Shown one piece after another: positions 8,719 to 64,000 of a stretch of 64,000 nt of DNA (its first letter is position 1; every line of letters starts with the position of its first letter). The DNA lies in assembly GCF_008831285.2 (NCBI RefSeq), contig NC_045138.2, positions 32,893,934-32,957,933 of the forward strand. Reading direction: 5' to 3'. Below the pieces are notes generated by a model. That model was not told the origin of the DNA. It saw only the letters and a program-made list of their open reading frames with translations, and searched no databases. Origin of the DNA: Nymphaea colorata. Its lineage: Eukaryota > Streptophyta > Magnoliopsida > Nymphaeales > Nymphaeaceae. The position numbers and the translations under genes were made by a program.

Positions 8719-8790
8719 GTCGTTGTAGTATAGTGGTGAGTATTCCCGCCTGTCACGCGGGTGACCCGGGTTCGATCCCCGGCAACGGCG
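8719..8790 (+). tRNA. tRNA-Asp (GTC anticodon)
   Basis: This is a complete cloverleaf: acceptor stem GTCGTTG paired with CAACGGC, discriminator G, anticodon GTC in the loop CCTGTCACG, and a T arm with GGTTCGATCC. It matches the well-conserved plant nuclear tRNA-Asp. There is no intron. A T-run at about 8806-8811, some 15 bases beyond the gene, can end Pol III transcription. Confidence 0.97.
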
Positions 8791-10680
8791 CCAATGATTT
8801 GATTATTTTTTGTTTTTCTACTGGTTCGTATCGTACTTAAGTTCACAAGCCACTTACTGCATGTCAAGCACGTGCCTTCTGAGCTTTTCCATTGTAGCCC
8901 ATTTTTGTGCAATTTCTCTTCTTACATACTTCTTTTTTGCCCCAAGCTAATGATATTTTCATTTTCTGCATTGCAGTCTTATTTATGTGATTCTTTAAAC
9001 TAAAAAAGTTGCAGATGCAAATGAAGGACGCACGAGTTGTTGATTCTCAAATCCCAAACCTCTCAGCTGTAAACGATTCAACAAACTACAGAAAAGCTAC
9101 CTCATTAATCATCTGTTTACATCAAAGTTAAAGCCGCTACATAGCTGTGTATGTCCACGAGACATGGTCAGTGCAAGGGGCTCATGTTCATTATAGAAAC
9201 TGCATGGTCCAAAGGAGGAACTGGAGAACCGGTTGCTAGGTATAGATATTCTCGGCTGCAGTCGGATCGTTGCCGACTCAGCCCAAGAAGAGAGATTTGG
9301 CATCGAATCACGGCTAAAAGAATTGAAGTAAGAGTTATATAGACGGAAACTCGGAAAGTATGCTTTCGAGATCAACTTCTCTAATCGTCGAAGTATTCTT
9401 TGGGAGAAGGATGAACCCTTGGATAATCTGTCGTTTGTAAGTCACTTCTTAGAATCTAGAGTCAGGTTGTACAGTAGGACAGTAGTATAGATCTGAAATA
9501 AAATAATGTACCCGTTGTACAGCTTTAATTGTTATTCTTTTTGCTCTTTGGAGAAGTTCCCTCTTTTCGAATCCTTCTGGTCATGCTTTCAACTTCCGAT
9601 TATGATATGGAAAGAATGGAAGAGGGCCTCCACATTTCGAGGAAAATTGGGAGGACATTTTGGTTTAGATTCCAAGCTTTTGTTACACCTCATGATTCAA
9701 AGCCGGACAGTCAATGAAGAGCATTCAGGAAAATAGGCATCGGTTTCCCATCATTGATCTATAACGACCTGAAAATACATAAAACATTTTGCTTTCAAAT
9801 ACATCAAATGAACTTGAATTTTTCATTGGACGAACCGGAATACACCTCTGACGAGTTTCAGTGTTCAAGCTTTATCAACTCCAAATTTTCCCAACAAAAA
9901 TTTTGGGCTTGTCAGCAGCACGCTTTCAATTTCACAGTATTGTCATATAGAGTGAAACATTGTAGGTTGGTTTTCAATGATGTAAACCAGGTTATTTAAC
10001 ACCGGATCTGTTTCCTGAAGAAGACCGATCCCGATGGAACGCACGTTAACATGCGACGATCTGCAAGTAATTATAATTCAAGAAAACCAAGGAGCCGTTT
10101 TGTTGATAACAGAACTCATCAATAATTCAAGACAACTAAAGCAGCTTTTTATTGATAAAAGAATTATCGCCAACAAGGAAGAATTGACCACTCGAGGTAG
10201 TTCATAAGATAACTGACAATTCAAAGTCTAGTCCATCAACAAAACTGACGGGCAACAGATTGGGGCAATCGGATAGTCCCTCACGAGATTGCTCCTCGCG
10301 ACTCTTGAGATCAAAATCCAAGAAAAATACATTTAACAAAGTTGAATACAGACAGCCCTGCATCGAAGGAACAAAACTTGTTTCCACATTTGGTGCGGTA
10401 GTTTTGACTCCATACTCACGGAAAAATGAGAAGAAGCTGATGAACGCACACAAATTTACGAGTTAATCAGCCTCTGCGCCTGGGTAATTAGACACAAAGG
10501 ATAGTTTAACTCAAATATGTGAAAAAGCATACACCATATCAATCCAAATGACAATAATTTAGATAATCGATAGAGCCTTAACCAATCTACGAACAAAAAG
10601 ACCATGTAAAGTTGGAGGTTTGAAAATCGGCTTCACGTCTGCCGCCAATAACAACGATGGATCATAAGATCAATTCGGCA
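8791..10680. other. Non-coding stretch leading into the snoRNA-like region
   Basis: No protein gene is seen on either strand. The open frames are short and without motifs. The right part lies downstream, on the minus strand, of the snoRNA-like units and may belong to the same transcript or its 3' flank. I could not find convincing C and D boxes with a closing stem here. Confidence 0.4.
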
Positions 10681-10694
10681 ACAAAACCACCGAT

Positions 10695-10835
10695 TTAAAG
10701 AGAAGAAAGCAAGCCTCAGACAGAGTCCTTTTTTATCAATGGCAAACAATGGCAACTCCAAGTAGGTTCTCCTTGATATCAAGGTCTTGGAACCACTATA
10801 AGCTCAACAGTCGGACGGATCGTCATTGGCAGGGA
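10695..10835 (-). ncRNA. snoRNA-like unit C1 (conserved central hairpin)
   Basis: This is a divergent copy of the unit at 11108-11225. The central region is nearly identical: AGTGGTTCCAAGACCTTG, a 4-base loop, CAAGGAGAACCTACTTGGAG. The arms differ. The 5' arm has GCC then AATGACG, a weak C box; the 3' arm has CTGA then GGC, a D box and stem partner. Different sequence next to the boxes would mean a different guide target. A C/D snoRNA assignment is inferred; the central stem-loop is seen directly. Confidence 0.5.
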
Positions 10836-11107: not shown

Positions 11108-11225
11108 GGCTTCAGTAAGGATCCAAGTCTTATCATAGAAGCCAGTGGCTGCTCCAAGTAGGTTCTCCTTGTAAACAAGGTCTTGGAACCACTGGGCCTC
11201 GAAAGAGGATCAATCATCACCAGCC
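11108..11225 (-). ncRNA. Box C/D snoRNA-like unit C2 (about 118 nt)
   Basis: The unit is closed by GGCT and AGCC. Just inside are a C box (GTGATGA) and a D box (CTGA). The middle folds into a stem, CCAGTGG with CCACTGG, enclosing CCTTG/CAAGG. It is long for a methylation guide and resembles U14-sized snoRNAs in length only; I do not recognise the family. Related copies are at 10.7 kb and 39.6 kb. The candidate guide segment is the stretch before the D box (TTGGATCCTTA); its target is unknown. Confidence 0.6.
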
Positions 11226-11320
11226 ACAACAATCAGGCGAAGATGCAGTGCAGAAATAAAAAACCATCATGACATACAAAAAAACTCATATGACAGGACA
11301 AACATAATATTTATTGACAA

Positions 11321-11404
11321 GGCTCAGTTCTTGATCAGCTCATCAATCACGAATTTTCAGAAGCAGAACTGGCATTTTAGAGCTGTCATTGTATCTTCAC
11401 AGCC
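11321..11404 (-). ncRNA. Box C/D snoRNA candidate B (84 nt)
   Basis: Terminal stem GGCT/AGCC, C-like box GTGAAGA, internal D' box TCTGA, C' box TGATTGATGA, and D box CTGA directly before the 3' stem. Size and box order fit a C/D methylation guide. Candidate guide segments are ATGCCAGTTCTGCT (before D') and TGATCAAGA (before D). The first looks complementary to rRNA-like sequence, but I cannot name a modified position. A degenerate copy is at 39021-39093. Confidence 0.65.
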
Positions 11405-11434
11405 AAATTAAAAGTCGCTAGAGATTGACAAGGG

Positions 11435-11665: not shown

Positions 11666-11753
11666 TTGGCTCATATTAAGAAATTCAACCATTAACTTTC
11701 GTGTGCTTCATGGATTTCAATCAGAAGCGCGGATAAATTCAGATCATTGCCAA
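11666..11753 (-). ncRNA. Box C/D snoRNA candidate A (88 nt)
   Basis: A perfect 5-bp terminal stem (TTGGC/GCCAA) closes the unit. Inside are a C-like box AATGATC, a D' box CTGA after CCGCGCTT, and a weak D box ATGA just before GCC. The collinear copy at 38675-38756 keeps the C box, the guide-like CCGCGCTTCTGA segment and the region before D, as expected if these are functional. Confidence 0.6.
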
Positions 11754-11885
11754 CAATATCAGTACCTTTTGACAAACATATATTTCCACAAGAATGACGC
11801 AACAAAAACTATGATATGCAAACCAAGGAACAAAATTTGCATTCGGAAGTGAGGAGTTTGAAGAGTTGTGGGTGCAGCTTTGACA

Positions 11886-11926
11886 CAGATCAACCGTGGA
11901 AAAAGATGTACAAATCGGTTGATCTG
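11886..11926 (-). ncRNA. Perfect 11-bp hairpin in the snoRNA-like cluster
   Basis: CAGATCAACCG and CGGTTGATCTG flank a 19-nt loop. The paralogous hairpin at 38554-38595 keeps eight pairs with compensatory substitutions. This supports a structured RNA, possibly one hairpin of an H/ACA RNA, but I cannot show an H box and ACA tail. Confidence 0.55.
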
Positions 11927-13043
11927 CAACACTCGGCACAGCTCGATCTAGCACATAGCAATGGGGCTGCCTTCGTCACAAGATATTTCAGAGGAGCCCG
12001 GGGTTTGCTCGTGCATCAATCAACCAATCGATGAGGAACCAATAAAAAAAACGAGAAAAAAGTAAAGGCAGTGAGGAATTAAACTTGCATTTCAAAAACG
12101 CAATTTAGAGCGACGTAGTCAAGAGCTTCTTCCCCACCTACGGATCACAAAAAACCACTTTTCTACCCATCTTCGTCCAGTTCACACGTCATCGCTTCTA
12201 CACACCAATGAGAAACTACAGAGAGCCGCAGCCTCTTCTAACGCTCCTTAATCATGACCACCGGACCTCTATCCAATATCAGGCAACCAGTAGTGGAACG
12301 ACTGAACCCGTTTCCAGCAATCCCTCCCCTGATGGAACGGATGTCAGAAACAGAGAGGCGTAAAACGAGCGATACTACTAAATGGAGCGGACTCTTATTT
12401 AACTAAGTGACCCACCAAAACAATGCCGACAAAGACAATGAATACATCAAACTTAAGCAGAACAGCAAATCTAGCTAATCTTCAACAAAAAGGGAAGGTG
12501 AAAACCGATGTTCTTTCTACTATGATTTTGAAGGGAAGAGATGTTCCATCGCAGAATGGTCAACTAAAGTCAATAAAGAAGATAGTTGACAAAGTGAATT
12601 GATGGAGTAATCCAATATCAGGGACGGTTCATCCCTGAGGCATCCAAGTGAGCCAAAGGGGCTATGTTGCAGTCCCTAGTTAAAAAAATCCACCACCCAA
12701 AACATCCCGAGTCACAGCACCAAGAAATCTAGTGAAGACTTCTAACAAAACCCAGAAAAACAGAAGATTATGGACACCCAAGTTCTGGAGATAGAGACGA
12801 GACTGCCAAACTTCAGCACTACCATACAGCTGATACTCTCATCACAGCAACACCAAAGCACCTTACAGAAGCTCTTCTTCCAAATAGCAAAAGATCACAA
12901 CCCAAACCCTAGAGAGGAAGAAGATGGAAGAGAATCGCAAAACAACCACCTTTGACAAAACCTTCACTCAAGACCACAAGAGAGGGAGAGAGAGAGAGGC
13001 AGCAGCAGCAGCAGAAGCGTGATGAGAGGAGAAACAAAGCGCC

Positions 13044-13095
13044 TTTTTTATACATAGCGGGGGGCAAGCAAGGTGAAGAAAAAAAAAAACCCTAA
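13044..13095 (-). promoter_or_regulatory. TATA box and telo-box promoter of the snoRNA-like cluster
   Basis: On the minus strand TATAAAAAA occupies 13044-13052, and TTAGGGTTT, the telo-box, occupies 13087-13095 upstream of it. Transcription would start near 13015, just before a TCT-rich leader. Telo-boxes mark ribosome-biogenesis promoters in plants. I see no clear site II (TGGGCY) element. Confidence 0.55.
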
Positions 13096-13127
13096 CTTGG
13101 ATCGAAGTACAAAGGTTGCTTTTTACC

Positions 13128-13720
13128 TTCGCTGAAGGGTCGGATTTCGGATTATGACCTACCCCAGTAATCCAGGATCCAAATTTAAGTTCAGATCCAG
13201 TTTTTTGGTGAAATTTTCAAATGGTTATTTCTTGTTTTGAAGGTGTAGTACAATCTGGAAAAGAAATTGATTATCGTAATAATATTGGTAAATTATTTGT
13301 TCATCGACCAAATTTAGCATACGTACCTTCCAAGTTCATTGCTTTAAATGATATTTAATTAATTTAAATGGCAGGTTTTTTATTTTTAAATAAGAAGCAG
13401 AAAAAAAAAAGAAAAAAAAAAAAGGGGCATTACCGTAAAAAGAGATATTTTGAAATACCTCATTTCTCTTCTTTCTCTCTCCCTCTTCAATACCAGTCCT
13501 CGAATCCGTGACGTTTCATGGTACCGTCAACTAATACCACCACAACGTCAGGGACTGGCCGGTGGAAAGAAAGTGAGCTAAAATTTTCAACTCATATTTC
13601 TGCCGTCTTTTTAATTTATTCGGCAAAATATCGCTTCCTCCTCCCTGCCGCTTTTAATTTATTCGGCAAACTTCAGTACCTAGAGCGAAGATCTTTTCAC
13701 TAATACAAGCTCCCCAAAAA
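13128..13720 (+). repeat. Dispersed direct duplication, left copy
   Basis: Blocks here match 14980-15805 in order, for example CCCCAGTAATCC.GGATCCAA, GGTTATTTCTTG.TTTGAAGG, TATTTTGAAATACCTCA, CAACTAATACCACCACAA and GGCAAAATATCGCTTCCTCC. The copies differ by substitutions and indels, so the duplication is old. No terminal repeats of a known element class are visible. Confidence 0.75.
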
Positions 13721-14979: not shown

Positions 14980-15805
14980 CCTACCCCAGTAATCCTGGAT
15001 CCAAATTGAGGTTCAGGTCCAGTTTAATGGTGAAATTTTCGAATGGTTATTTCTTGGTTTGAAGGTGTAAGTGCTCCCTAGTGCAATCTGGAAAAGAAAA
15101 TGATTATCCAAGTACTTTATATTCTTATATTTTGAAAGATTTTCAATGCATGGTAAGAATTCCTACCCTATACAATGTGCCCATAATGGGCTTTCTCAAT
15201 AACATCTTATAGTGTTGATAATTTGTTTTGTAACACAACAAAGTTGGCATTCAGACATTTCCTTTTTCTGCTTTGGGTGGCTTTTAATGAATCTAAAGGA
15301 AACCAATGTTAAAATTTTGTTGGATAGTTATTCATTGTTTTTCTACGCTGGAACTTTTTCACTAGTAGAAAGTAGAAAACAAAATTATGGAAACGTTTTT
15401 AATTTTTTCTTGATGCCGGGCGGTAATGACTTGTATAATCTGCCAATGGCAGGTTTTCTTAAATAGGGAGCAGAACAAAAAAAAAGGAAAAAAAAAAAAA
15501 AGAATAGGTGCTACAAAAGGAGGTATTTTGAAATACCTCACCCTTTTTAAATAACTTAAATAAACCGTACCAGTCTTCGAACCCAAGACGTTGTAGAGTA
15601 CAATCAACTAATACCACCACAAAGCCAGGAGCCAACTGGTGAATGAAGAGTGAGCTAAAATTTTTAACTCTTATTTTTGCGGTCTGTTTTTATTTCGGGA
15701 AAAAATCGGCAAAATATCGCTTCCTCCCCTCTGTCGCTTTTATTTACCACTGCATAAACGGTCCTATAGTACTTAGAGCGAAGATTTTTTCACTAATAAT
15801 ACAAG
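14980..15805 (+). repeat. Dispersed direct duplication, right copy
   Basis: Partner of 13128-13720, offset by about 1.85 kb. It is longer because of insertions. No coding function is seen; the open frames inside are interrupted and show no motifs. Confidence 0.75.
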
Positions 15806-16209: not shown

Positions 16210-19200
16210 ATGACGTCTAATGCTTCCCGAAGTCTTCACGTGGAGGGTGAACCGGAAGCCAAGCGACCAAAGGTCGCCGGCGACTCCATGATCTCCGGCG
16301 TTAGCGAACGCGTCGAACTCAACCCTGCCGATTGTAATCTGGGTTCGTGCTTTTTTTTTTTTATTATATATATATATATCTCGCTTATATTTTTAGCGTT
16401 TTCAGTTTCCCATTTTCCGCCGCAGTTCGATTTCGTTGCTTTGTTTCCGGCCTCTTCGTAGTCGGACGTAGTGAATTGGTGCGTTTGGGCTTCGGTTAAA
16501 ATGATATGCAAAGAGCAACTGGTTTCTTGCTGAAACGTGTTGTTTGTGGGAGTTTTAATACTTTTTGTTGTTTCCTGTTGCATTTTTAATGGTTATGTCG
16601 TGAAAACATTATCCTTTTTCGCGTGTTAGGGCTTAAATTTTTTTTCTCGCGTGGATTGAAGTTCTTTTTTTTCTTTATTTTTTGATGGTTCAATGGAATT
16701 AGTTATCAAAATTCGAAAGCGTATGATCTCTTAGTTAGGTTCGTAATGTTGGTTGAATCATCGGGTTGGAGACTGGAGTAGCACAAGAGAATTATTTCAG
16801 TGGGGTGTTAAAAATACTTCGAGAATGCGGAGGGAGAATGTCTGAATTTATGTAAACGTTGGTTTAAAGTAGAGCAGTTGAGCTATCTGATTCGTGAAAC
16901 GGCGTCTTAATTTTTTGTCATTGAGCAACTATGGCGAGGGAATGCGGATGCAAGGGCAGTTTAAGATGGGTGAATTGGAGGTTGTATTCTGTGTGGACAC
17001 TGACCATGTTTAACATCTTTCTTTTTTTACAAGTAAGCATTCACCAAAACTAAGCAATATTGATTGTGGTGGGTTTGGGGTTCCTTTTGCATCCTCGCTA
17101 GTGATTGTGGGTTGGTCTTTCACTGTTCAGTGCAATAATACCACAGGAAATTAGAGGGTCTTCCATTGTTATTCAGTGCAACATGTCACCAGACTTAACA
17201 TTCTTGATCTAGATGGGTTTTATTTGTTCGAACTTGGATGTTCGGTTTGAATTAGTTTTGAATATAATTTTGTAGAGGTCCTGACGGTAGTTTTCCTTTT
17301 TCAACCGAAGCATATCATGAAAATTGTGCTCTACAAATTACTCAAGTTTGAGTATATCATATGGTTCATTTTAGCTCTTACATCTGCATCTTTCTTCAAC
17401 AGATTTCAATATAGAACAAAATGGTCTTCAAGGTCATGCACTTTACGATGGGGGATTTGCTTACTGCTGGTCTGGTGCTCGTGCAAATATTGGAATTACT
17501 GGAGGAAAATACTGTTTTGGCTGTAAAATTATCTCCCAGCAACCAGTTGATATGGAGGACACGCCTCCTGATCAGCAGCATGTATGTCGAGTTGGTATTT
17601 CGAGAGGCGATGATAATGTTGGAAGTCTTGGTGAAAGTGAACACAGCTTTGGTTTTGGTGGTACTGGTAAATTTTCAAACTCAGGAAAATTTTCAGATTA
17701 TGGTACAAAATTTGGTGTTGGTGACACTATTGTCTGTTCCGTGGACCTTGAGAGCAAGCCGCTGGCCGTGATTAGCTTTTCAAAAAACGGGCAGTGCTTG
17801 GGGACTGCCAAACAATTTGATGCCGGACCTAGGGGCCTACAGATTATAGACTCTGTGGCCAAGACACTGGCCTGGGAGTCAGCTTTGTTCCCACATGTCC
17901 TCCTGAAGAACGTTTTGGTTCAGATGCAGTTTAGTATTGAAGACGGTTTGGTCCCAGAAGAAGGTTATAAACCTTGGAATTGTGCTGTCCAAGAAAGAAA
18001 TATGATATCTGGGCCTACGTTCCTTGGTCCTGAAGATCGTGAAGTAATAATGATGGTAGGCTTGCCTGCCTCTGGAAAAACCACCTGGGCTGAAAAATGG
18101 ATAAAGGATCACCCAGAGAAGCGTTACATTCTTTTGGGAACAAACCCAGCGCTTGATCAGATGAAGGTGTTTCCAGTTTACGGCTTTTCCCCTCCTTTTG
18201 ATTCTATTAGTTGTGCATTAAGTTTGTTTTGTAGGCAGTGCACTTTCAAGTATGTAATACCAGTTCAACTGAGTTGTTTCCTGCAGGTACCAGGGTTACT
18301 GCGAAAGCATAATTATGGTGAGCGATTTGATCGTCTAATGGATAGAGCGACAGGAATATTTAATACTCTGTTAGCAAGGGCTGCCAAGACTCCTAGAAAT
18401 TACATTCTTGATCAAACTAATGTTTATAAGAGTGCTCGGAAAAGGAAATTAAAGGCCTTTATTAATTGTCGTAAGGTAATGTGTATGAACTTCATTATAC
18501 ACATTAGAAGTTGACTTTTTCCCCCCTTGTTTTCAGTTTTTCATTTTGCTACAAGAATTCTGATCGCCCTTCATCTTGACTTCCTTACCAAGCTGTTTAG
18601 ATTGCTGTTGTGATATTTCCAACTCCTCAAAACCTGAAGAATCGTGCAAAAAGACGATTTAAAGAAATGGGGAAGGAGGTGCCTGCTGAAGCAGTAAATG
18701 AGATGCTAGGTACTCCTGAAAAAGTTTCGTGACATCCTGACATTATGTTCTTTTAGTTTTTGTGTTGAGTTGAAGCCTGATATTCAATTGGACTGCAAAC
18801 CTAAGTGTTTGCAAAGCTTTCTTTTAGATTTTCTCATCTCTATGGTACCCCATGGGCGCGTCTGTTTATGTCTATGAATAGCAAATGCACGTCTTAGGTG
18901 CCTCTTGCATGCACATACTGTTCAAATGCATGTGTCATTCATGTATAAACACACATGCATGAAATAATTTGATGGGAGAAAATCTATAATGTTGTTAATA
19001 AATGATCAAAGGAGCAAAAAATTATCTGCAAACCTCGATTAAAATATAAAGTAGGTAGGGGTCTTTTATGGTTCTAATTCTTTAAGAACATTTTTGTTGA
19101 TTCACAGCCAACTATGTATTGCCAACAAGCAAGGACATGCCAGGGACTGACGAGTTGTTTGATGAGGTAGGTTAACTGGCTACATTCAGTTTTCCTTTCT

Positions 19201-24078: not shown

Positions 24079-24189
<111 letters not shown>

Positions 24190-24487: not shown

Positions 24488-24512
24488 TGCGGTGAGCGTG
24501 GATCGAACACGC

Positions 24513-24555
<43 letters not shown>

Positions 24556-24560
24556 CCCGC
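24488..24560 (-). tRNA. tRNA-Phe (GAA anticodon)
   Basis: On the minus strand it begins GCGGGGATAGCTCAGTTGGG, has anticodon GAA (ACTGAAGAT loop), a TTCGATCC T loop, and ends CACCGC plus discriminator A. This is the standard plant nuclear tRNA-Phe. A TTTTT run follows within about ten bases of the 3' end. No intron. Confidence 0.97.
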
Positions 24561-34709: not shown

Positions 34710-37330
34710 ATGTCTTTTTCTATTCTTTCTTGTCCGAGTGCAAACCCTGTGAATGTGCCCAGCATTGGTACCCGTCATAATAAACCATCTGCGTGGAGAG
34801 GATCCTTTGGGAGGAGATGGGTCATAAATAATAGGATTCAAAAGCTAAACTGCCTTGAAGGTCAGGGGTTGTCCTTTGGTTCTTCCTTGCTCTCGTCCTA
34901 CTCACTGTTTTCCTTCCACAGGAAGGGTAAACTTGTCACCCATGCCACAGATGAGGAAAATAGCTTGGCAGATTATGTAGATGAGGCTGAGAAAGAAGCA
35001 AGAAAGACAAGTACGCTTCCAGATAGATTCAGGAACTTAACTAAGGAAGCCCCTGATCGTCCTGTTAGATGGCCTTGGTTGATCGGTATGTTCTATCCAA
35101 ATTGAACCCATTCAAGCATCATTTCTAAGAATTACATGTGTGTTGTTCCCCTTGAAAAATAACTGCAGTGACCTCTGATATGCTAGTGAGCATCTAGCAT
35201 GTGCCTGTACAGAAACAGTTGCAAAATAAATGTAGCTTTTGCACCATGGTTTTATGTAGTGAGGATTCCAGTGTAACTGAATTTTCTTAATATTTTATGT
35301 GATTGCATGAAATTCGATTGCATGAAATTCACGGTGTGCTATGGTGCTATCAGCTAAAAACATGATTCTCATTTGTAAGCTTATTAGTTTTGTTCTTGTC
35401 AGTTTGTTGAATGAAAAGTAACTGGAAGCGGAGCTTATTTTCTATTTCTTGTCAGCTTATTTTGGCTCTTTAAAGTACAAAAATTTCCATGGATTGGCTG
35501 CATGTTACTTGGCTGTAATAGTACCATTTGACATGTTAGACTTGCTTTCGAGGGGTTGATCTCTGCCTACCTTCTGCCACATCTCTTCAGCAATCCCCGT
35601 TCTACTACATTCCAACCATTTTCCTGCCAGAACGTTTCTACACTAGTACATCTTTTTTTTTAAGCTGAAACATGCCCTGACCTACATTATTGGATTGAGA
35701 GAAGAAAAGATCCATCTAGAAAACTATTATGATCATCCTTTCCTGAGAGGAAATTCGTGTTACCTTTATTTAGTGAAAACATAAGTACTCGATAAAAGTA
35801 AATGTTGATGCATTTGAGGACTACTCTTTCTCTCTCTCTCCCTCTCTCTCTCTCTCCACCCACATTATGCCACATCCATTAATCCACCCCCTTTTACTAC
35901 CTTGTCCAACCATTTTCCTGCCAGAATGTTTCTGGATTAGTACAGCTTTTGATCGTTTTATTGCTGAAAAATGGCATGAAAGAATTCTTTATTTGGTTTT
36001 GAAAAAGGAAAGTTGGGCTAGGAAGCTGTTCATTACCACCGCCCTTTCCTGAGACCACATTCATGTTTGGCCTTCATAGAATGGTAAATATTGACGTATG
36101 CACAACTCTCTTTCTGTTTCACATGCACACATATACTCTGACACATACCCACAAACACATACTTGCAAACCCCCTCCTTGCACACACACACACACACACA
36201 CAATCACATTAATGAGCGTTATGTTCTACTATTGAGTTTCATATCAACAGGATAGTTAAAATAATGCCAACAACTATGCGTGGTTTACAATGCTAAGGGT
36301 CATTATCTCATATTACATATAATTATTCGACTTGTGTTGCCATTCCATACTGGTTTTTAATTATTTTCCACCAATTTTTCTGTAACGTATGTAATTGTGC
36401 CATGTCCCTTTTGCCCCAATATATTGCCCGAATTAGAACGTTGTCAATGTCAGTCTGATATCTTTCACGTAATTAATTGGCATCAGTTGTGGAGTTTTAT
36501 TGGAGACCAAATGACAAGAGTTGGGCGTGTGATCTTTGCTAATTATAATTGTTTTCGATACTTGATTTCTTTTGAAGTGAGATCTATTCCTGTTCATGGT
36601 CCAAAATAACCTCTGTGTATCTTGCTTATCTACAGCGGTCGTATTTCTTCTTTATGCTTGGCGAACTGTTCTCTGGGAACTTGCAAACTGGAAGAAGCTT
36701 GTGCTGATCATACCTCAGTTTTTGAAATATCTTTCCAAGTTATTATTGGCTTTCATATTCCATTTCGCCGGTGACCTGATCACTGGTATTATCTGGCTAG
36801 TTGAGACTGTCCTATACACTCTTCGATCATTCTACTTCAGTATAGTAGCTGCTGCTCCAGTACAGGAGCTGACCATTGTCATTTTATTAACATCATCAGT
36901 ACTTGCTATTGCGGAAGCTGTAGTTCCAGAGTCCGTCAGTGGCCAGCCTTATCTTCTAACATTTGCTGGTTTTGTTGGTTTTGGAGCTGTTAAGGGATTT
37001 CTTCCAGAGGTGATATTTTGGTTGCTTTTGGTGGGCATGTTCTGTTTTTCACGCTTTGTTGGTAAGAGAGATCTTGTCTCTGCAACCTTGCCAGTAGCAT
37101 CATTGTTGGTTGCCATTGGTCAGCCTTGGGTCAGGGCACTTGTAATGCTTTCCTACACGGCTCTTGCTATTACTCAGCATTCCAGGTCAGTCCGCGGCAA
37201 AGATGGTGTTGAAGATCTTCCTGCCATTGGAAGGCAGCCAATCCCATTGCTTATTGCAGCTTTGGCTATTGGGGTACATATAGCAGCAAAATGGATCCGT
37301 TACAGGCACTTGACTTGGATGATAGCCTAA
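34710..37330 (+). CDS. Predicted plastid multi-pass membrane protein (plant-specific, unknown function)
   Basis: Two exons, 34710-35085 and 36636-37330, join in phase at the WPWLI/AVVFLLYAW position and give 356 residues. The first 70-80 residues are rich in Ser, Asn, Gly and Arg with few acids, like a chloroplast transit peptide. Then comes a conserved-looking soluble stretch (DEENSLADYVDEAEKEARKT, LPDRFRNLTKEAPDRPVRWP) and five to seven hydrophobic segments to the C-terminus, including SIVAAAPVQELTIVILLTSS and PYLLTFAGFVGFGAVKGFLP. I recognise it as resembling green-lineage chloroplast membrane proteins but cannot name a characterised family. Intron 1 is 1.55 kb and contains a tandem duplication. 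No catalytic motif is visible. Confidence 0.85.
35560..35980 (+). repeat. Imperfect tandem duplication within an intron
   Basis: Two segments about 290 bp apart share GCCACATC and CCAACCATTTTCCTGCCAGAA, followed by GTTTCT and TAGTACA, then CCTTTCCTGAGA further on. The duplication lies wholly inside the intron of the plastid membrane protein gene. Confidence 0.6.
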
Positions 37331-38550
37331 TGGCTGATAGCTTTGGATTGTGGAGCAGGTTCCTGTGCTTGAATGGTCAATGTTCTTAGTTTGGAAGCCT
37401 TGGTCACAGCTGTAGTGTGTTGAGGATTGCATATGGAATTGTCTGTAGTTCGTGCCATGGTTGAGGCGATGTCTACTTGTATATTTTGAGAACTTTTTGC
37501 TTTTTTCATGCTGATGTCTGTAGCTAGGCATTTGAAAATTTATCTTCCTTTTCGTTTTCTAATGCCAGAACATTAATTGGTAGAGTTCTGCGCTTCACAC
37601 CGAGCCTATACGATCCCTGGAGTGCACTTTCCTAGGTTCCTAGGTGCTGTGAGTTGTAGAGTTCAAGTCAACCCTGCGTTGGCTCGTGTGGTGGTGGGCA
37701 ATTCGAACATTGTAGCCACAAACATGAGGTAGAATCGGAGAGAAACAGTCTTTCTTATATGAATACTGCATTGTTATTTGTTATATAGAATCAAGAATTT
37801 CGCCTTCGGAAATCGAAAAGGGAAATTAGGATTTTCTGTAACCACGCTTTTCTGCCAAACCCGCCCGACTGATGGGGGTCAAATTTGCGTCTCTAATCTG
37901 ATGAAGTCGTGGAATGCCAATGTGTGATCCAACGATTTAAAAAACACAGGTGTCGGACTCAGACTGGATGCTCTGGATACAACCCAGTAGTGTCGATCGC
38001 ATCGATAAGTGTTCCCCCATGTTCTCTTCTATGATCTATCCAAGAGTTAGCGAGTGGGATTTAGGGCGTTCGAGATGGAATTCAAGCTGAACTCAACTCG
38101 GCTCCGGAGTGTCTTGAAAGAAGCTCCAACTCTTTTAATAAATGTATTATATATATATATATATTTTGAGCTTGACTGAGATTAACTGAGTTAAGCTCAC
38201 TTTACTCGGTCTCGACTCGTTTACATTGTCGAGTTCATTTCTTAACTCGAGCCAAGTTTATCGAGTAGCTCGGCTTGTTGACTTTTTTCTGGAGAAAAAG
38301 CCTTTACCCCGGCAGCGAAACCATGAAAGAAAGATGAATTGGCGCCAAAATACTGGAAGGATATATTCTCCATTATCTCTGGTTGCCAAGGAAAACCAAC
38401 ATTAGAAGTTACATTTCTGTTGAATCATTGGGTTGCAGCGACGTCTATATTTTGTCCTTTTTATGCGAAGGATCCGATTTGCGAGACCTGAAGTCGTCTT
38501 TGCTCTTCACTGTAGTAATTCGGTTCGCCCCTTATATTAGCTGCGAAGTT
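37331..38550. other. Intergenic region, no gene seen
   Basis: The first 200-300 bases are probably the 3' UTR of the membrane protein gene. The rest has no supported coding frame. A TA microsatellite lies at about 38147-38164. Confidence 0.4.
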
Positions 38551-38674
38551 TCGCGGTTCAGCTGATCTTGTACCTCATCTACCATGGCTGAAAGCCTGAA
38601 CCATGCCAAAGCTGCATCAACAGCCGTTTTGATTTTCCTATGTCGATCCCTTTTGTGCGGCCGTATAGGTGCAG

Positions 38675-38756
38675 TTGGCAATGATCTGAACTTAGCCGCG
38701 CTTCTGAGTGCAAAGTGTGAAGCATACTAATGGTTGAATTTCTGAATATGAGCCTA
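38675..38756 (+). ncRNA. Box C/D snoRNA candidate A, second copy
   Basis: TTGGC and GCCTA flank the unit, so the terminal stem keeps four of five pairs. Box AATGATC, the CCGCGCTTCTGA segment and TAATGGTTGAATTTCT are shared with 11666-11753. Confidence 0.5.
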
Positions 38757-39020
38757 CTTGTACACCAATGTTATGCCTTTTCCGCCTTCGACGTTTATTT
38801 GGAGGCAGTTCGTCTTAACTCCTGTTGGTAGATATTTTGTTATGTTCAGTTGAGTTTGTCGATCCATTTGGTTATGTTTACATGGTATTGCCATTGGTTC
38901 CTCTTTTTGCCCTAGCAATGCTGAAAAATCTCCTGCTCTGCCAGTGTCAGGCATCTTAGTTGCGTGTTTTACCACATCAAGTGTTATTTGTGCGAGTGAC
39001 TTACTGACATTTGCTTTCGT

Positions 39021-39093
39021 CAGTCAAGATAATTTGGCAGCTCCTTATGCCATTTCTGCTTCAGAAAATTCATGATCGATGAGCTGATCAACA
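39021..39093 (+). pseudogene. Degenerate snoRNA-like unit B
   Basis: Clear similarity to 11321-11404 through GCAGCTC, ATGCCA.TTCTGCTTC and GATGAGCTGATCAA. The expected D' (TCTGA) reads TTCAGA and the expected D box (CTGA) reads TTTGA, so it probably cannot form a normal snoRNP. Confidence 0.5.
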
Positions 39094-39549
39094 AATTTGA
39101 GACACATGCAGTTTAAATTCATTCGGCTGCTTTTGTTTGGATCCAAAAAATCATATACTGTTTTTTAAGTTTACTCTCTTATATCCATGCAATTTTAACC
39201 AAGTTTAATCGCTGCTTAGTGGACCGTGAAAATTTAGAAGGGCAATTGCATTGACTCATCAGTCTTCTTATCACTTCATTCTGCTTGGGTTTTCTGTTGA
39301 TGACGTAGTCTTTGTTTGTTTTCTGTCTCTGCATGCTTCCAGGTCCCTGAGTATAAGTCTGGCAAGCTTTTGATTTTGTTGGGTGACCTGCAAGATCAAC
39401 GCTCCATGTTTCTTTTTGGTTTGTCTTCGTGTTACTGATAGATGCCTCGAAGATTCCTCTCTCCCTCCTTGGGATTGTGCTCCTATGAAATCTTATGTTG
39501 GATATGAAATTTGTTTATGGTTGTCATGTATACGTTGGTCTGAGAAGAG

Positions 39550-39660
39550 GAAAGCGGCTGGTGATGATTGATCCACTTTTGAGGTTCAGTGGTTCCAAGA
39601 CCTTGTTAACAAGGAGAACCAACTTGTAGTAGCCACTGCTTCCTGTGGTAAAGCTTGGAT
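39550..39660 (+). ncRNA. snoRNA-like unit C3 (conserved central hairpin)
   Basis: GGCTGGTGATGATTGATCC and the central stem-loop AGTGGTTCCAAGACCTTG...CAAGGAGAACC are nearly identical to 11108-11225. The 3' arm keeps CTTGGATCC but no CTGA follows, so the D box seems lost. Confidence 0.5.
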
Positions 39661-39905
39661 CCATATGCCATTTCTTTGACATATCATATCGTTTGTTTTC
39701 TGTAACCCTTCCCCTTTTGCAGATTTATAGTTGTAACATGTACTTGTTCTATATCCTCCATTTAGTCAGTTGGGTGGTTGTGTTTTCTACCTCTGTAGGT
39801 TCTTGTGCTGGTACATGCTTGTAACTGGTTCATGGTTATGGTCAAACTCATTTAGGTTTAATGGGTATCGTGTTTTTTTAATGTTATGCTGAAGTTTCAT
39901 CTGTT

Positions 39906-39906
<1 letters not shown>

Positions 39907-39957
<51 letters not shown>
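39907..39957. repeat. (TA)n microsatellite
   Basis: About 25 uninterrupted TA units. Confidence 0.95.
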
Positions 39958-39960
<3 letters not shown>

Positions 39961-41119
39961 TAAATATCCATATTTCATTGCCAATGAAGATATCTCAATA
40001 TATTGAGCTGTAATGGTTCCAAACCTTTATTGAATTAGTCTGATTGGATTGGGCATTATGTTCTCTCCTATTTTATCAGGTTGTCATGATGTGTAGATAC
40101 ATTATTTGTCTACCTTCCATTTTATGATATACGAAGTTGAAAATATGACAAAGATTTATTCATGGTGATTTTCTTTTCTTCTTCCCTATCATAAGAGGAG
40201 AAACCTTTTCATAATTGTAAATAACTTTTTCGTGTGAAAAGTTCGTATTAAACACGACTTTCCAACGTGTGCTAGGCTCCGATACTATCTGTTGGTTAAT
40301 TTCTGCAGGAAATGTATGTTCTGTAAAAATTTATCATTTAACCTTAGCCCGTGCCAAATTATTTGGAGTAAACAAAACAGAAAGATATACAGACCTACGA
40401 GAAAAGTGAATTAACTTGCGCCTTTTTTTAAAAAAGGGTTTTGCCTTTCGTAGAAGCAAAAATATACAAATAAGGTATTTAGACACTGTGGAAACGTTGT
40501 ATCATACAATTTAACGGAATGCCAAAACCGATGAAACCGCTTCAATTGATCTGATATTACAATGAATGGCCAATTGTATATAAGCCGTGAACTAAATTTT
40601 CAACATATTTTTCTAGTATGATTTTTCTTTCTGGGCTTCTAAGAAGTTTTAGAATGACTGGATAATAGGCAATTAGACAGCCGTGGCCAAAAATATTTGA
40701 CTTGTACCACCATCCTTCATCGGCGTAATCCTGGGAGTCGAGCCTGAACTACTCATAGACTCCGCAGTATTATCGGTTTCTCTGTTTGCTGATAATCGTT
40801 TTATTTTTTGGTGGTCTACAAGACACGCATAAACTGGCTTTGGAGTTTTGGCGTTCCATGAAAGGATTGAAGCTAGTTAGGATTTTTGGCACTTCGACTG
40901 CTTGTGTTTATGGGTAAAGAAAGTAACTTAGTTGATGTCACGAATTCCGTTTGTCTTCCTTGTCTCTTTCCACCATCGGGTTTCCCTGTTTCGTTTGTGT
41001 TGGTGTCTCTCTCCCTGTCGGGTTTGTGCTACTGGTTTACAAAGATCCTTCCAACACGAATTGCTGTCCAAGCCATAGCCACAGATCTTTCTTGGACCAT
41101 ATACACGACGACATTTGGC

Positions 41120-41120
<1 letters not shown>

Positions 41121-41162
<42 letters not shown>
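41121..41162. repeat. (GA)n microsatellite
   Basis: About 20 uninterrupted GA units; it creates long Glu/Arg or Ser/Leu open frames that are not genes. Confidence 0.95.
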
Positions 41163-41166
<4 letters not shown>

Positions 41167-41686
41167 GTTTCTGTACGAAAACGTACTTATTGGGCGATGC
41201 ATGTGAGCGGTTTCATGTTCATTTTCATTCAACTTCAATCCTGCAATCTTTGTTTCTGCTATTCTCTCTCCCGAACTTTTCAGTGTATACGCAAAAATAT
41301 GCATGTGCGATTGAGTCGCCCCACCAAACTTTTTAAGCAAGTAAAAATTAAAACCAAAATGCGAAGTTAACTTTGAAGGTAACTTCTTTTAGTCTCCCGA
41401 AAAGAGGTGGCTGGGAAGAGGTCCCATACTCTACGGGCAGATGGTATTTGAGCTTCTCTCATTCTCTCTGTGCCTTTGGGTCCTGAGATCCGTCGGAGTT
41501 CACTCTCACTTTTAAAGGTCCCAAGAATTAGCAGCCACTAAAATCAAAGCGCACAAACACTATCCACATGTACCTTGTTCTGACCAGCTATATCCTTTGA
41601 GGGCAGATGACATACAGAAGACCATATCAATTAATAGTTTTTATGGCTCCTCTTCCCCTCTCAGTAAGGTCTAGTTTAGGAGCGTC

Positions 41687-61031: not shown

Positions 61032-63755
61032 ATGTCGGTGGCAAGGAGGAAAAAGGACGCTGCAGGCGGGGAGGAGGACGCCAGAGTTTCCTCCTTCCCT
61101 GATGAAGTTCTGGAGCACGTCCTTGTCTTCTTGAAATCTCACAAGGATCGCAGCGCGGTTTCACTCGTATGCAAGGATTGGTACGCCGCGGAGAGGTGGA
61201 GCAGGACTCATGTGTTCATCGGGAACTGTTATTCTGTCTCGCCACAGATCCTGGTCCGGCGATTTCCTAACATCCGGAGCATCACGCTCAAGGGGAAGCC
61301 TCGATTCTCCGATTTCAACCTCGTCCCGCCGCATTGGGGTGCGGATATCCACTCATGGCTGGTTGTTCTGGCTAAGGCGTATCCTTTCTTGGAGGAACTC
61401 AGGCTCAAGAGGATGACTGTTACGGATGAGAGCCTTGATTTTCTAGCGACCTCCTTCCCGAACTTCCGGGCACTGTCGCTCGTTAGCTGTGACGGATTCA
61501 GCACGGATGGCCTTGCGTCGATTGCTACACATTGCAAGTATTTCTTCGTCCCTCAGTAATTTCTGTGTTGGCAGTTTGGTCTTTTCTAGTTTTGGGGATG
61601 AAAGAAATTATGCACATGATGCTATTGCAACTGTGCGTTTTAATGTTGGATGGCTTCTTGAAGTTGGTATTGCAGGTTGTGTTTGTGAACAATATTCTCT
61701 TGCTAGATGTTGCTGCTTAGTTAAGGCCTAGATTTTTTTTTTTCTCTTCTAACGATACCTCTGCAAAAATTGCCCTTAATATGTGTTTATAAGCCTCAAG
61801 ATCTGTCTAACACATGACTATTTTCTGAAATTTATTCTTCGGGCTTGCTGAATGGCACAATTACCGATGGTGACTGGACGTTGCAACTGCTTCACTCTCA
61901 AATTTGGGATCTGAAATCACACCTGTTTCCTTTGTTTTTCACTTGTTACATGAGGTTGACTTTATGCTGGCTGTCTGGTTTAGGAAGTTTGAACTGACAC
62001 TAAGTCTCTTTGCTGACTTTGAGGACTTTTTGCGGCTGTATTTGTAGGCCTGGATAGGTGTGATGCTCTTGCCTTCTATGATTCTACAATAGAACAGGAA
62101 CCACAACACAAGTTGAATAAATGGTCCCTATCTTTTCTCCCCATTGATCTAAAATGGAGTCCCGATCCCTTTACTTCATGGTTTCTCGGTGTTGCAGAAA
62201 CTTTTATGTTCACTGAAACCACGCCTGAAGCTTCATGGAAGATGCAACTGTGCTTAATCGCTATTCGGGCACAATTTTCCTGACGATGATTCTTTAAGAT
62301 TGCAGAACCTTCTCATGGACACCACCTAAATTTTGTTTTAGTTTCATGAATCCGTCTTACTCACATACACTTTTTAAGTTGTTCGCCAGGTTGCTCAATT
62401 CTTAGCGTATTACCTTGTAAGAAGATGTGTTTCTACATTATCTTTGCATGTTTCATCAAATTAGCGTTCAGTATCAGGTACGCAGAACTGGATGCGAGCA
62501 CCTGGAATAGCTGTCACATAAATGAGGATGATAAGATACAAGAACCTTTAATATGTCTACATGTATCTCTAAGACGATCAGAGAAACTGAAGATAACACA
62601 TTTTTATACGATACATAGTGTCCATAAGAAAATCAGCATGTTCAATTAAATTCAAGATGCGACTTGCTTGGTCTATATCTGAAATAACCACCTTAGACGT
62701 ACTTCTTATTTAAATGCCCAAGCAGCAATATTGTTAGTGTACGTTAAAGCTATTGATTGCTGATTGACACTGGCAGTCCACCGATGTATAATTTGGCATA
62801 ACCTAGCATTTGGTCTGTTTCTCTTAGCTGAAGATGCTGAGCTTATTTGCTGCCTTTGGTAAATTTACTTGTTGGTTCTTTAAGGAGAAAAAAGGGACCA
62901 TAATCTTCATTCTGCCTCTTTTGTGTCCTTGGTGTCAACGTGCTATTTAAATGCTACTGGAGTTTGCCTATGTTCATATTTTAGGATCCATTTTAATGTT
63001 TATCTGGGTCGAAATTGTTGAGAGTATTAGTAGCATAATTATTTGGCATTCTTAACTTGGTAGGTGGCACCCCGTGCCATGTTTGCCATTCTGATGTTGC
63101 AGTGGTGTACTTTGAATGGTTTATTTTGTATTCTTGGACGGAAATTGTGTTTCGAGCTTGACTTACGGTAGATGCTGGTGGTATCTGACGTGCTTCGTTA
63201 TGTACTTTATTTTCATCTAACTTTCTTTTGCTAATCTGATTAATTATACGTTAAACTTTCAGGAACTTAACGGAGATGGACATACAAGAGAATGACGTAC
63301 TTGACCTTGGAGGGCACTGGCTAAGTTGTTTTCCTGAAAGTTTTTCATCTCTTGAGATCCTCAATTTTGCAAGTCTCAATAGTGAAGTAAGCTTCGATGC
63401 TCTAGAAAGGCTTGTGTCACGGTGCAAATCACTGAAGGTTCTGAAAGTAAACAAATGTGTGTCACCAGAGCAGTTGCAGAGGCTTCTTGTTAAAGTTCCA
63501 AACCTGGTGGACCTTGGCACTGGGTCACTTTTACAGGAACTTACTATTCGGCAATTTGCTGAGGTGAAAAGTGCATTGGGCAACTGTAAAAAATTGCATA
63601 CTTTATCTGGCTTGTGGGAAGTAACGTCGTTGTATATTCCTGCTCTATCTCTGGCTTGTGCGAACCTTACATTTTTGAATTTAAGCTATGCTGTCCTTCA
63701 AAACACAGAGTTGGCTCAGCTGCTTGCAGGATGCCCTCAGCTTCGGCGCTTATGG
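61032..63755 (+). CDS. TIR1/AFB auxin-receptor F-box protein (partial; 3' end beyond the right edge)
   Basis: TIR1/AFB proteins are F-box subunits of nuclear SCF ubiquitin ligases; auxin glues Aux/IAA repressors to their leucine-rich repeats. Two exons are visible, 61032-61537 and 63263-63755, joined in phase (THC-KNLTEMDI) for 333 codons. The second ends at the donor after CPQLRRLW, a position where family members have an intron. An F-box ([35 protein letters not shown]) covers about residues 20-60. It is followed by [81 protein letters not shown] and [10 protein letters not shown]. It mixes TIR1/AFB2-like and AFB4/5-like features and resembles the AFB6-type branch I recall from some angiosperms. 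The auxin-pocket residues in later repeats and any miR393 site lie outside the window. The start is the first in-frame ATG. Confidence 0.92.
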
Positions 63756-64000
63756 GTATGTGATGATATCAAACTTTTCTTAAGCATAACCTATGTTTAC
63801 TTGTTTCGTACATTTCCATTCTAAGAAGATGGTTTCTGTACACTTCCAGGGCAACTAACTAATTTAGTTGGGCTTATAAATTAGTTCACGTTCGTAGAAA
63901 CGTGTTAACAAATTGGGAGCTTCAACCATGTCCCAATAACCTTTGCTACATGGGTGGGTTGACTTCGATACTATTGGATTGGGCTCAAGGATCGCGTCTA

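Follow-up and report, generated by a model that had tools for sequence, protein, structure and literature searches.

A perfect hairpin at positions 11886-11926 of a 64,000-nucleotide stretch of the Nymphaea colorata genome (NC_045138.2, 32,893,934 to 32,957,933; hereafter the window) is the upper stem-loop of the 3' hairpin of a known plant H/ACA small nucleolar RNA (snoRNA), snoR134, a member of a conserved structural-RNA family, encoded on the minus strand at 11864-12016 (copy 1). The pocket beneath this stem-loop is complementary to the helix-31 loop of 18S ribosomal RNA (rRNA), and most likely, as we infer from this complementarity, snoR134 guides pseudouridylation of the residue that carries the hypermodification m1acp3Psi in yeast (U1191), human (U1248) and tobacco (1194). 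The broader reading, held with reasonable rather than high confidence, is that snoR134 serves flowering plants as the guide for the m1acp3Psi precursor in the P-site loop of 18S rRNA, doing the job of yeast snR35 and human SNORA13 although no homology to either is detectable, and that the single recognisable copy found in this genome is what is left after its duplicate lost part of the guide. A first-pass annotation of the window had presented the hairpin as covarying with a second copy near 39 kb (copy 2), and had argued that this covariation directly demonstrates selection for RNA structure.

The identification of copy 1 follows from a covariance-model match to the Rfam family RF01430, which scores 75.2 bits against a cut-off of 40 and spans the whole model (positions 1-149 of 149). 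The model alignment provides two hairpins with internal-loop pockets and places 11886-11926 within the second of them, where a perfect inverted repeat of 11 bp, CAGATCAACCG (11886-11896) with CGGTTGATCTG (11916-11926), encloses a 19-nt loop; on the RNA strand, the arms 11926-11916 and 11896-11886 are joined by 11 Watson-Crick pairs, as the first-pass annotation had reported. The ACA box lies at 11867-11869 (minus strand), followed by three more bases up to 11864, the 3' end predicted by the model. The predicted fold of copy 1 is more stable than that of most shuffled sequences (z −2.57, with 4 of 200 shuffles equally good). When the genome was searched with RF01430 at an E value of 0.001, copy 1 was the one match (40 of 21,691 first-look candidates scored), and a DNA search with copy 1 likewise found one match, so that copy 1 is not a recognised repeat. 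Compared with the Rfam consensus, two g-c pairs of the upper stem have each become A-U, both bases having changed with pairing kept, and the alignment flags none of the upper-stem pairs as broken. As far as the sequences compared can tell, this comparison of copy 1 with its family is better evidence for structure than the covariation between the two copies, and it is the full-length family match, not copy 2, that bears out the view of the hairpin as part of a conserved RNA structure.

In H/ACA RNAs, the internal loop beneath the upper stem base-pairs with rRNA on either side of the target uridine, and 14-16 nt separate the pocket from the ACA box. With the stem of copy 1 lengthened by the G-U pair adjoining CAG/CUG, the pocket comprises a 5' guide arm, GUGUU (11928-11932, minus strand), which pairs with AACAC of helix 31, and a 3' guide arm, GUCAAA (11879-11884, minus strand), which pairs with UUUGAC. 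Against the helix-31 loop, UUUGAC[U]C-AACAC, the two arms give 5+6 pairs, all 11 of 11 Watson-Crick, with the ACA box 15 nt away, and the RF01430 consensus carries identical pocket letters. The site is present in the same genome, at C6:19880174-19880207, within an 18S fragment (C6:19879909-19880543) that contains AAUUUGAC[U]C.AACACGGG. The search for targets covered 635 nt from 18S and 460 nt from 25S rRNA, together offering 268 uridine positions; the 18S copies found were partial, and of two 25S patterns one had no match and the other recovered only the 3' end of one 25S. Among these 268 positions the helix-31 site was the best, and its 11 Watson-Crick pairs were reached by 6 of 20,000 shuffled pockets and in none of 2,000 shuffled rRNA sets. 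According to this model, the 3' pocket of copy 1 would direct pseudouridylation of the helix-31 uridine, which would then become m1acp3Psi. The 5' pocket has no convincing target in the same 18S and 25S fragments (best, 6 pairs).

The ribosomal genes of the assembly were surveyed in passing. The 5' end of 18S is matched 23 times, while the helix-31 region occurs once, on another contig, and none of the eight 18S loci scanned includes helix 31, several of them running into N; the assembled ribosomal DNA thus seems to be either truncated or collapsed.

The residue in question has been described in several organisms. A 2021 Arabidopsis review equates U1192 in helix 31 with yeast U1191 and human U1248, both of which are m1acp3Psi, lists the pseudouridine site as predicted, and leaves its hypermodification open (PMC8351944). 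Tobacco m1acp3Psi1194 is described as contacting the P-site transfer RNA (tRNA) (PMC10281867), and m1acp3Psi1196 is reported in wheat (PMC10743738). The guide for this residue is snR35 in yeast (PMC7277114) and SNORA13, termed a homologue of snR35, in human (PMC12975130). Copy 1 is like these two RNAs in its predicted guidance of the same helix-31 uridine, and differs from them in that neither appears among the Rfam matches of 11840-12040 at E ≤1; of all Rfam families, snoR134 and, weakly, mir-599 were the only ones to match copy 1 at this threshold. That mir-599 match, which overlaps the hairpin at 18.9 bits against a cut-off of 94 (E 0.1), was rejected as lying far under the cut-off. The passages of PMC11222342 that name snoR134 state no target for it, and no link between snoR134 and helix 31 was found in the literature searched, supplementary tables and snoRNA databases being outside that search. 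Nor did a literature search for the letters UUUGAC[U]CAACAC together with m1acp3 find a paper. The assay for human U1248 uses HinfI cleavage; HinfI recognises GANTC, which GAC[U]C of the helix-31 site fits.

Several observations weigh against this assignment, on the side of the RNA as well as that of the target. In the lower stem of the 3' hairpin, 2 of 7 pairs are non-standard relative to the RF01430 model, and no strict ANANNA H box is present in the hinge, where AGATCG, with one mismatch, occupies the position of the family's AgAuua; H boxes may tolerate such a mismatch. Copy 1 thus differs from its family in a degenerate H box as well as in these two lower-stem pairs and the two double-changed upper-stem pairs described above. 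Folded without constraints, copy 1 favours another pairing as its minimum-energy structure, differing in the 3' half, and the 11-bp stem has a probability of about 0.14, a value that applies to the RNA without guide target or proteins. Upstream of the cluster in which copy 1 lies, no Site II motif was found at 12640-13600. As to the target, 907 of 20,000 shuffled pockets attain 11 pairs once G-U pairs are allowed, and the runner-up, which lies in the 25S fragment, has 9 pairs including one G-U. The equation of UUUGAC[U]CAACAC with the place of yeast U1191 is a probable one, hinted at by the HinfI site. An earlier study, as cited in PMC10743738, detected no m1acp3Psi in etiolated wheat seedlings.

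A better target may exist elsewhere in rRNA, since the test set consisted of fragments, and copy 1 could be a genuine snoR134 whose 3' pocket has a different target or no target at all. The incomplete rRNA, the 9-pair site in 25S and a 5' pocket that finds nothing beyond 6 pairs would all accord with this; 11 of 11 Watson-Crick pairs at canonical spacing, around a residue that, on this placement, is modified in plants, argue against it, and we judge it unlikely. Guidance of the helix-31 uridine by snoR134 is the reading retained here.

Copy 2 (38539-38622, plus strand) preserves the snoR134 3' hairpin only as a diverged remnant. The RNA strand is minus in copy 1, and its homologous strand in copy 2 is plus. 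A local alignment of 11943-11867 (minus) with 38539-38622 (plus) has a score of 28, which none of 2,000 shuffles reached, and the possibility that the two copies are unrelated was rejected on this ground. Of the 74 columns without gaps in this alignment 58 are identical, and a further 13 contain gaps. To judge from this alignment, copy 2 is a diverged duplicate, homologous in sequence and situated 27 kb from copy 1. The alignment stops short of the 5' half of copy 1, and three bases of the copy-1 lower-stem side are absent from copy 2. No RF01430 match was obtained at E ≤5 in 37500-41500 (4 kb) or at E ≤10 in 38380-38680 (301 bases), and copy 2 is therefore not counted as a snoR134 member. Its fold is no better than that of shuffled sequences (z −0.07, 89 of 200 at least as good). 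The aligned guide arms read GUUUC and GCCAAA and keep 3 of 5 and 5 of 6 of the helix-31 pairs, so that 3 of 11 are lost, and in four registers the best site in the 18S and 25S fragments has 7 pairs. What copy 2 does retain is ATATTA, which fits ANANNA, at 38534-38539 and a terminal ACA at 38620-38622.

The covariation proposed for the two copies concerns a copy-2 stem at 38557-38592 (plus strand), in which 38557-38564 pairs with 38585-38592. In the ungapped register of 11 pairs, four are unchanged, four are changed yet still pair, and three are changed and broken. The eight consecutive pairs that had been reported (pairs 4 to 11) are indeed present, as are the four changes that keep pairing, two of them double-sided (A-U to U-A and A-U to G-C) and two one-sided to G-U; left out of that account were the broken outer pairs, 1 to 3. 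Thus 4 of 7 changed pairs still pair, an outcome with a probability of 0.17-0.24 for random bases. A structure-blind alignment agrees with this register along the 5' arm and at seven bases of the 3' arm, while an 8-nt insertion (3+5) in copy 2 makes the partner of pair 4 ambiguous.

Unconstrained change was simulated. With the register fixed, a run of at least 8 pairs arose in 0.2-0.8% of simulations with equal substitutions and in 1.7% at 40% divergence, which favours the claim; at 40% divergence with the register free to slide by up to 4, a run of 8 arose in 6.0%, and in the real pair three positions did break. At least 8 pairs in total were seen in 3.8-13.6% of simulations with equal substitution number. 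Stems of eight pairs, G-U allowed, are no rarity: 205 of 500 stretches of 73 nt drawn at random from the window contain one, as do 93 of 500 shuffled versions of the copy-2 stretch. Moreover, copy 2 contains a rival stem (38555-38602, plus strand), GGTTCAG/CTGAACC, whose seven pairs between 38555-38561 and 38596-38602 are perfect. When the two shortest stretches were folded, this stem had a probability of about 0.8 against about 0.2 for the proposed one; in two longer stretches the values were 0.14-0.24 and 0.09-0.13. Together with the missing family match and the shuffle-like fold, this rival stem brings copy 2 near the outcome named beforehand as telling against covariation, a better alignment with shifted stem arms, although the structure-blind alignment keeps most of the register.

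With two sequences, R-scape-like tests are powerless. Scans with a pocket-and-stem pattern yielded one stretch from the genome contigs and one from viral contigs, neither with an Rfam match over its cut-off, and therefore added no homologues. To call the two-copy pattern direct evidence of selection is too strong, given two sequences and two double-sided changes, one of them ambiguously aligned; it is suggestive and falls short of direct evidence.

These data bear on the proposal that both copies are functional H/ACA RNAs and that the stem truly covaries, copy 2 having drifted to another 5' hairpin and perhaps another target. The significant structure-blind alignment of the 3' halves, the rarity of an eight-pair run at fixed register, and the ATATTA and ACA motifs of copy 2 are all consistent with it, as is the pairing of the outer CGG to CTG (38554-38556 with 38596-38598) that a 3-nt bulge would permit. 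Set against these are the missing Rfam match, a fold indistinguishable from shuffles, the loss of three guide pairs with no rRNA-fragment site above 7 pairs, the preference of copy 2 for the shifted stem, and the absence of a telo-box at 37400-38480, and overall we find the proposal improbable. We keep to a single recognisable snoR134 with a duplicate that has lost part of its guide.

A reading of the hairpin as a chance inverted repeat, or as one of microRNA or transposon origin with no tie to snoRNAs, deserves almost no credence: shuffles of the window yield about one such repeat and a weak mir-599 match overlaps it, but the full-length RF01430 match amid co-oriented plant snoRNA genes in effect refutes this, and the single genome DNA match speaks against a recognised repeat. 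Perfect 11-bp inverted repeats with loops of 3-45 number 97 in the window, 89 of them within AT-rich runs; the remaining 8 fall at 5 places, of which the copy-1 hairpin is one. Dinucleotide shuffling of the window, done 20 times, produced 1.05 such repeats on average and at most 11, so the copy-1 repeat is by itself only mildly unusual, and it is its location inside a snoRNA that gives it meaning. Two AT dinucleotide repeats were also noted, one at 24115-24177, detected as inverted repeats, and one at 39902-39973, which has sub-cut-off microRNA matches on both strands.

Copy 1 belongs to a cluster of snoRNA genes on the minus strand (cluster A). The cluster includes the H/ACA snoRNAs snoR97 (10386-10492; RF01215, 52.7 bits) and snoR99 (12539-12643; RF01208, 64.2 bits), the latter being the most upstream member found, and the C/D snoRNA U36a (11667-11752; RF01302, 90.4 bits). 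In the same region and orientation lie two RF00201 matches, at 10713-10830 (45 bits) and 11109-11224 (31 bits, below the cut-off of 36), and an RF00135 match at 11317-11408 (69.9 bits). On the plus strand, 27 kb away and inverted, cluster B contains a second U36a (38676-38755; RF01302, 69.1 bits), an RF00135 match at 39015-39107 (45.8 bits, cut-off 45) and an RF00201 match at 39557-39649 (32.7 bits, below the cut-off of 36). These are the two U36a matches found in the genome (65 of 32,528 candidates scored).

Clusters of U36 in flowering plants are treated in passages of PMC5122169, and telo-box and Site II motifs are given as marks of plant snoRNA cluster promoters in passages of PMC4660826. 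The arrangement seen here resembles plant polycistronic clusters with U36 in that C/D and H/ACA genes are co-oriented with a telo-box upstream, and differs from them in the missing Site II motif at 12640-13600 and in the presence of two inverted clusters. Five telo-boxes occur in the window, two of them upstream of cluster A: these copies of AAACCCTA (12904-12911 and 13087-13094, plus strand) stand 261-451 bp upstream of snoR99 and flank a TATAAA (13047-13052, minus strand). Upstream of cluster B, at 37400-38480, neither telo-box nor Site II was found. Just upstream of cluster A, 13158-13705 and 14980-15798 form a two-piece direct duplication, with identities of 73 and 84%.

Elsewhere in the window, tRNA genes were found for Asp (GTC; 8719-8793, plus strand) and Phe (GAA; 24488-24560, minus strand). 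Among eight open frames searched against Pfam, 17552-18511 (plus strand) has SPRY and AAA_33 domains, 36596-37327 (plus strand) matches the AtTam38 family, and 63276-63821 has weak LRR matches.

Taken together, the two copies are a member of a known snoRNA family, whose predicted target fits well, and its diverged duplicate. As a pair they are mostly ordinary, and the predicted target is what makes them useful. Covariation counted on two paralogues, one of which is diverging, can mislead. The unexplained hairpin is now assigned to a named RNA, a putative guide whose predicted target at the ribosomal P-site is precise and can be tested, and such a guide would make the first step of the m1acp3Psi pathway testable in plants.
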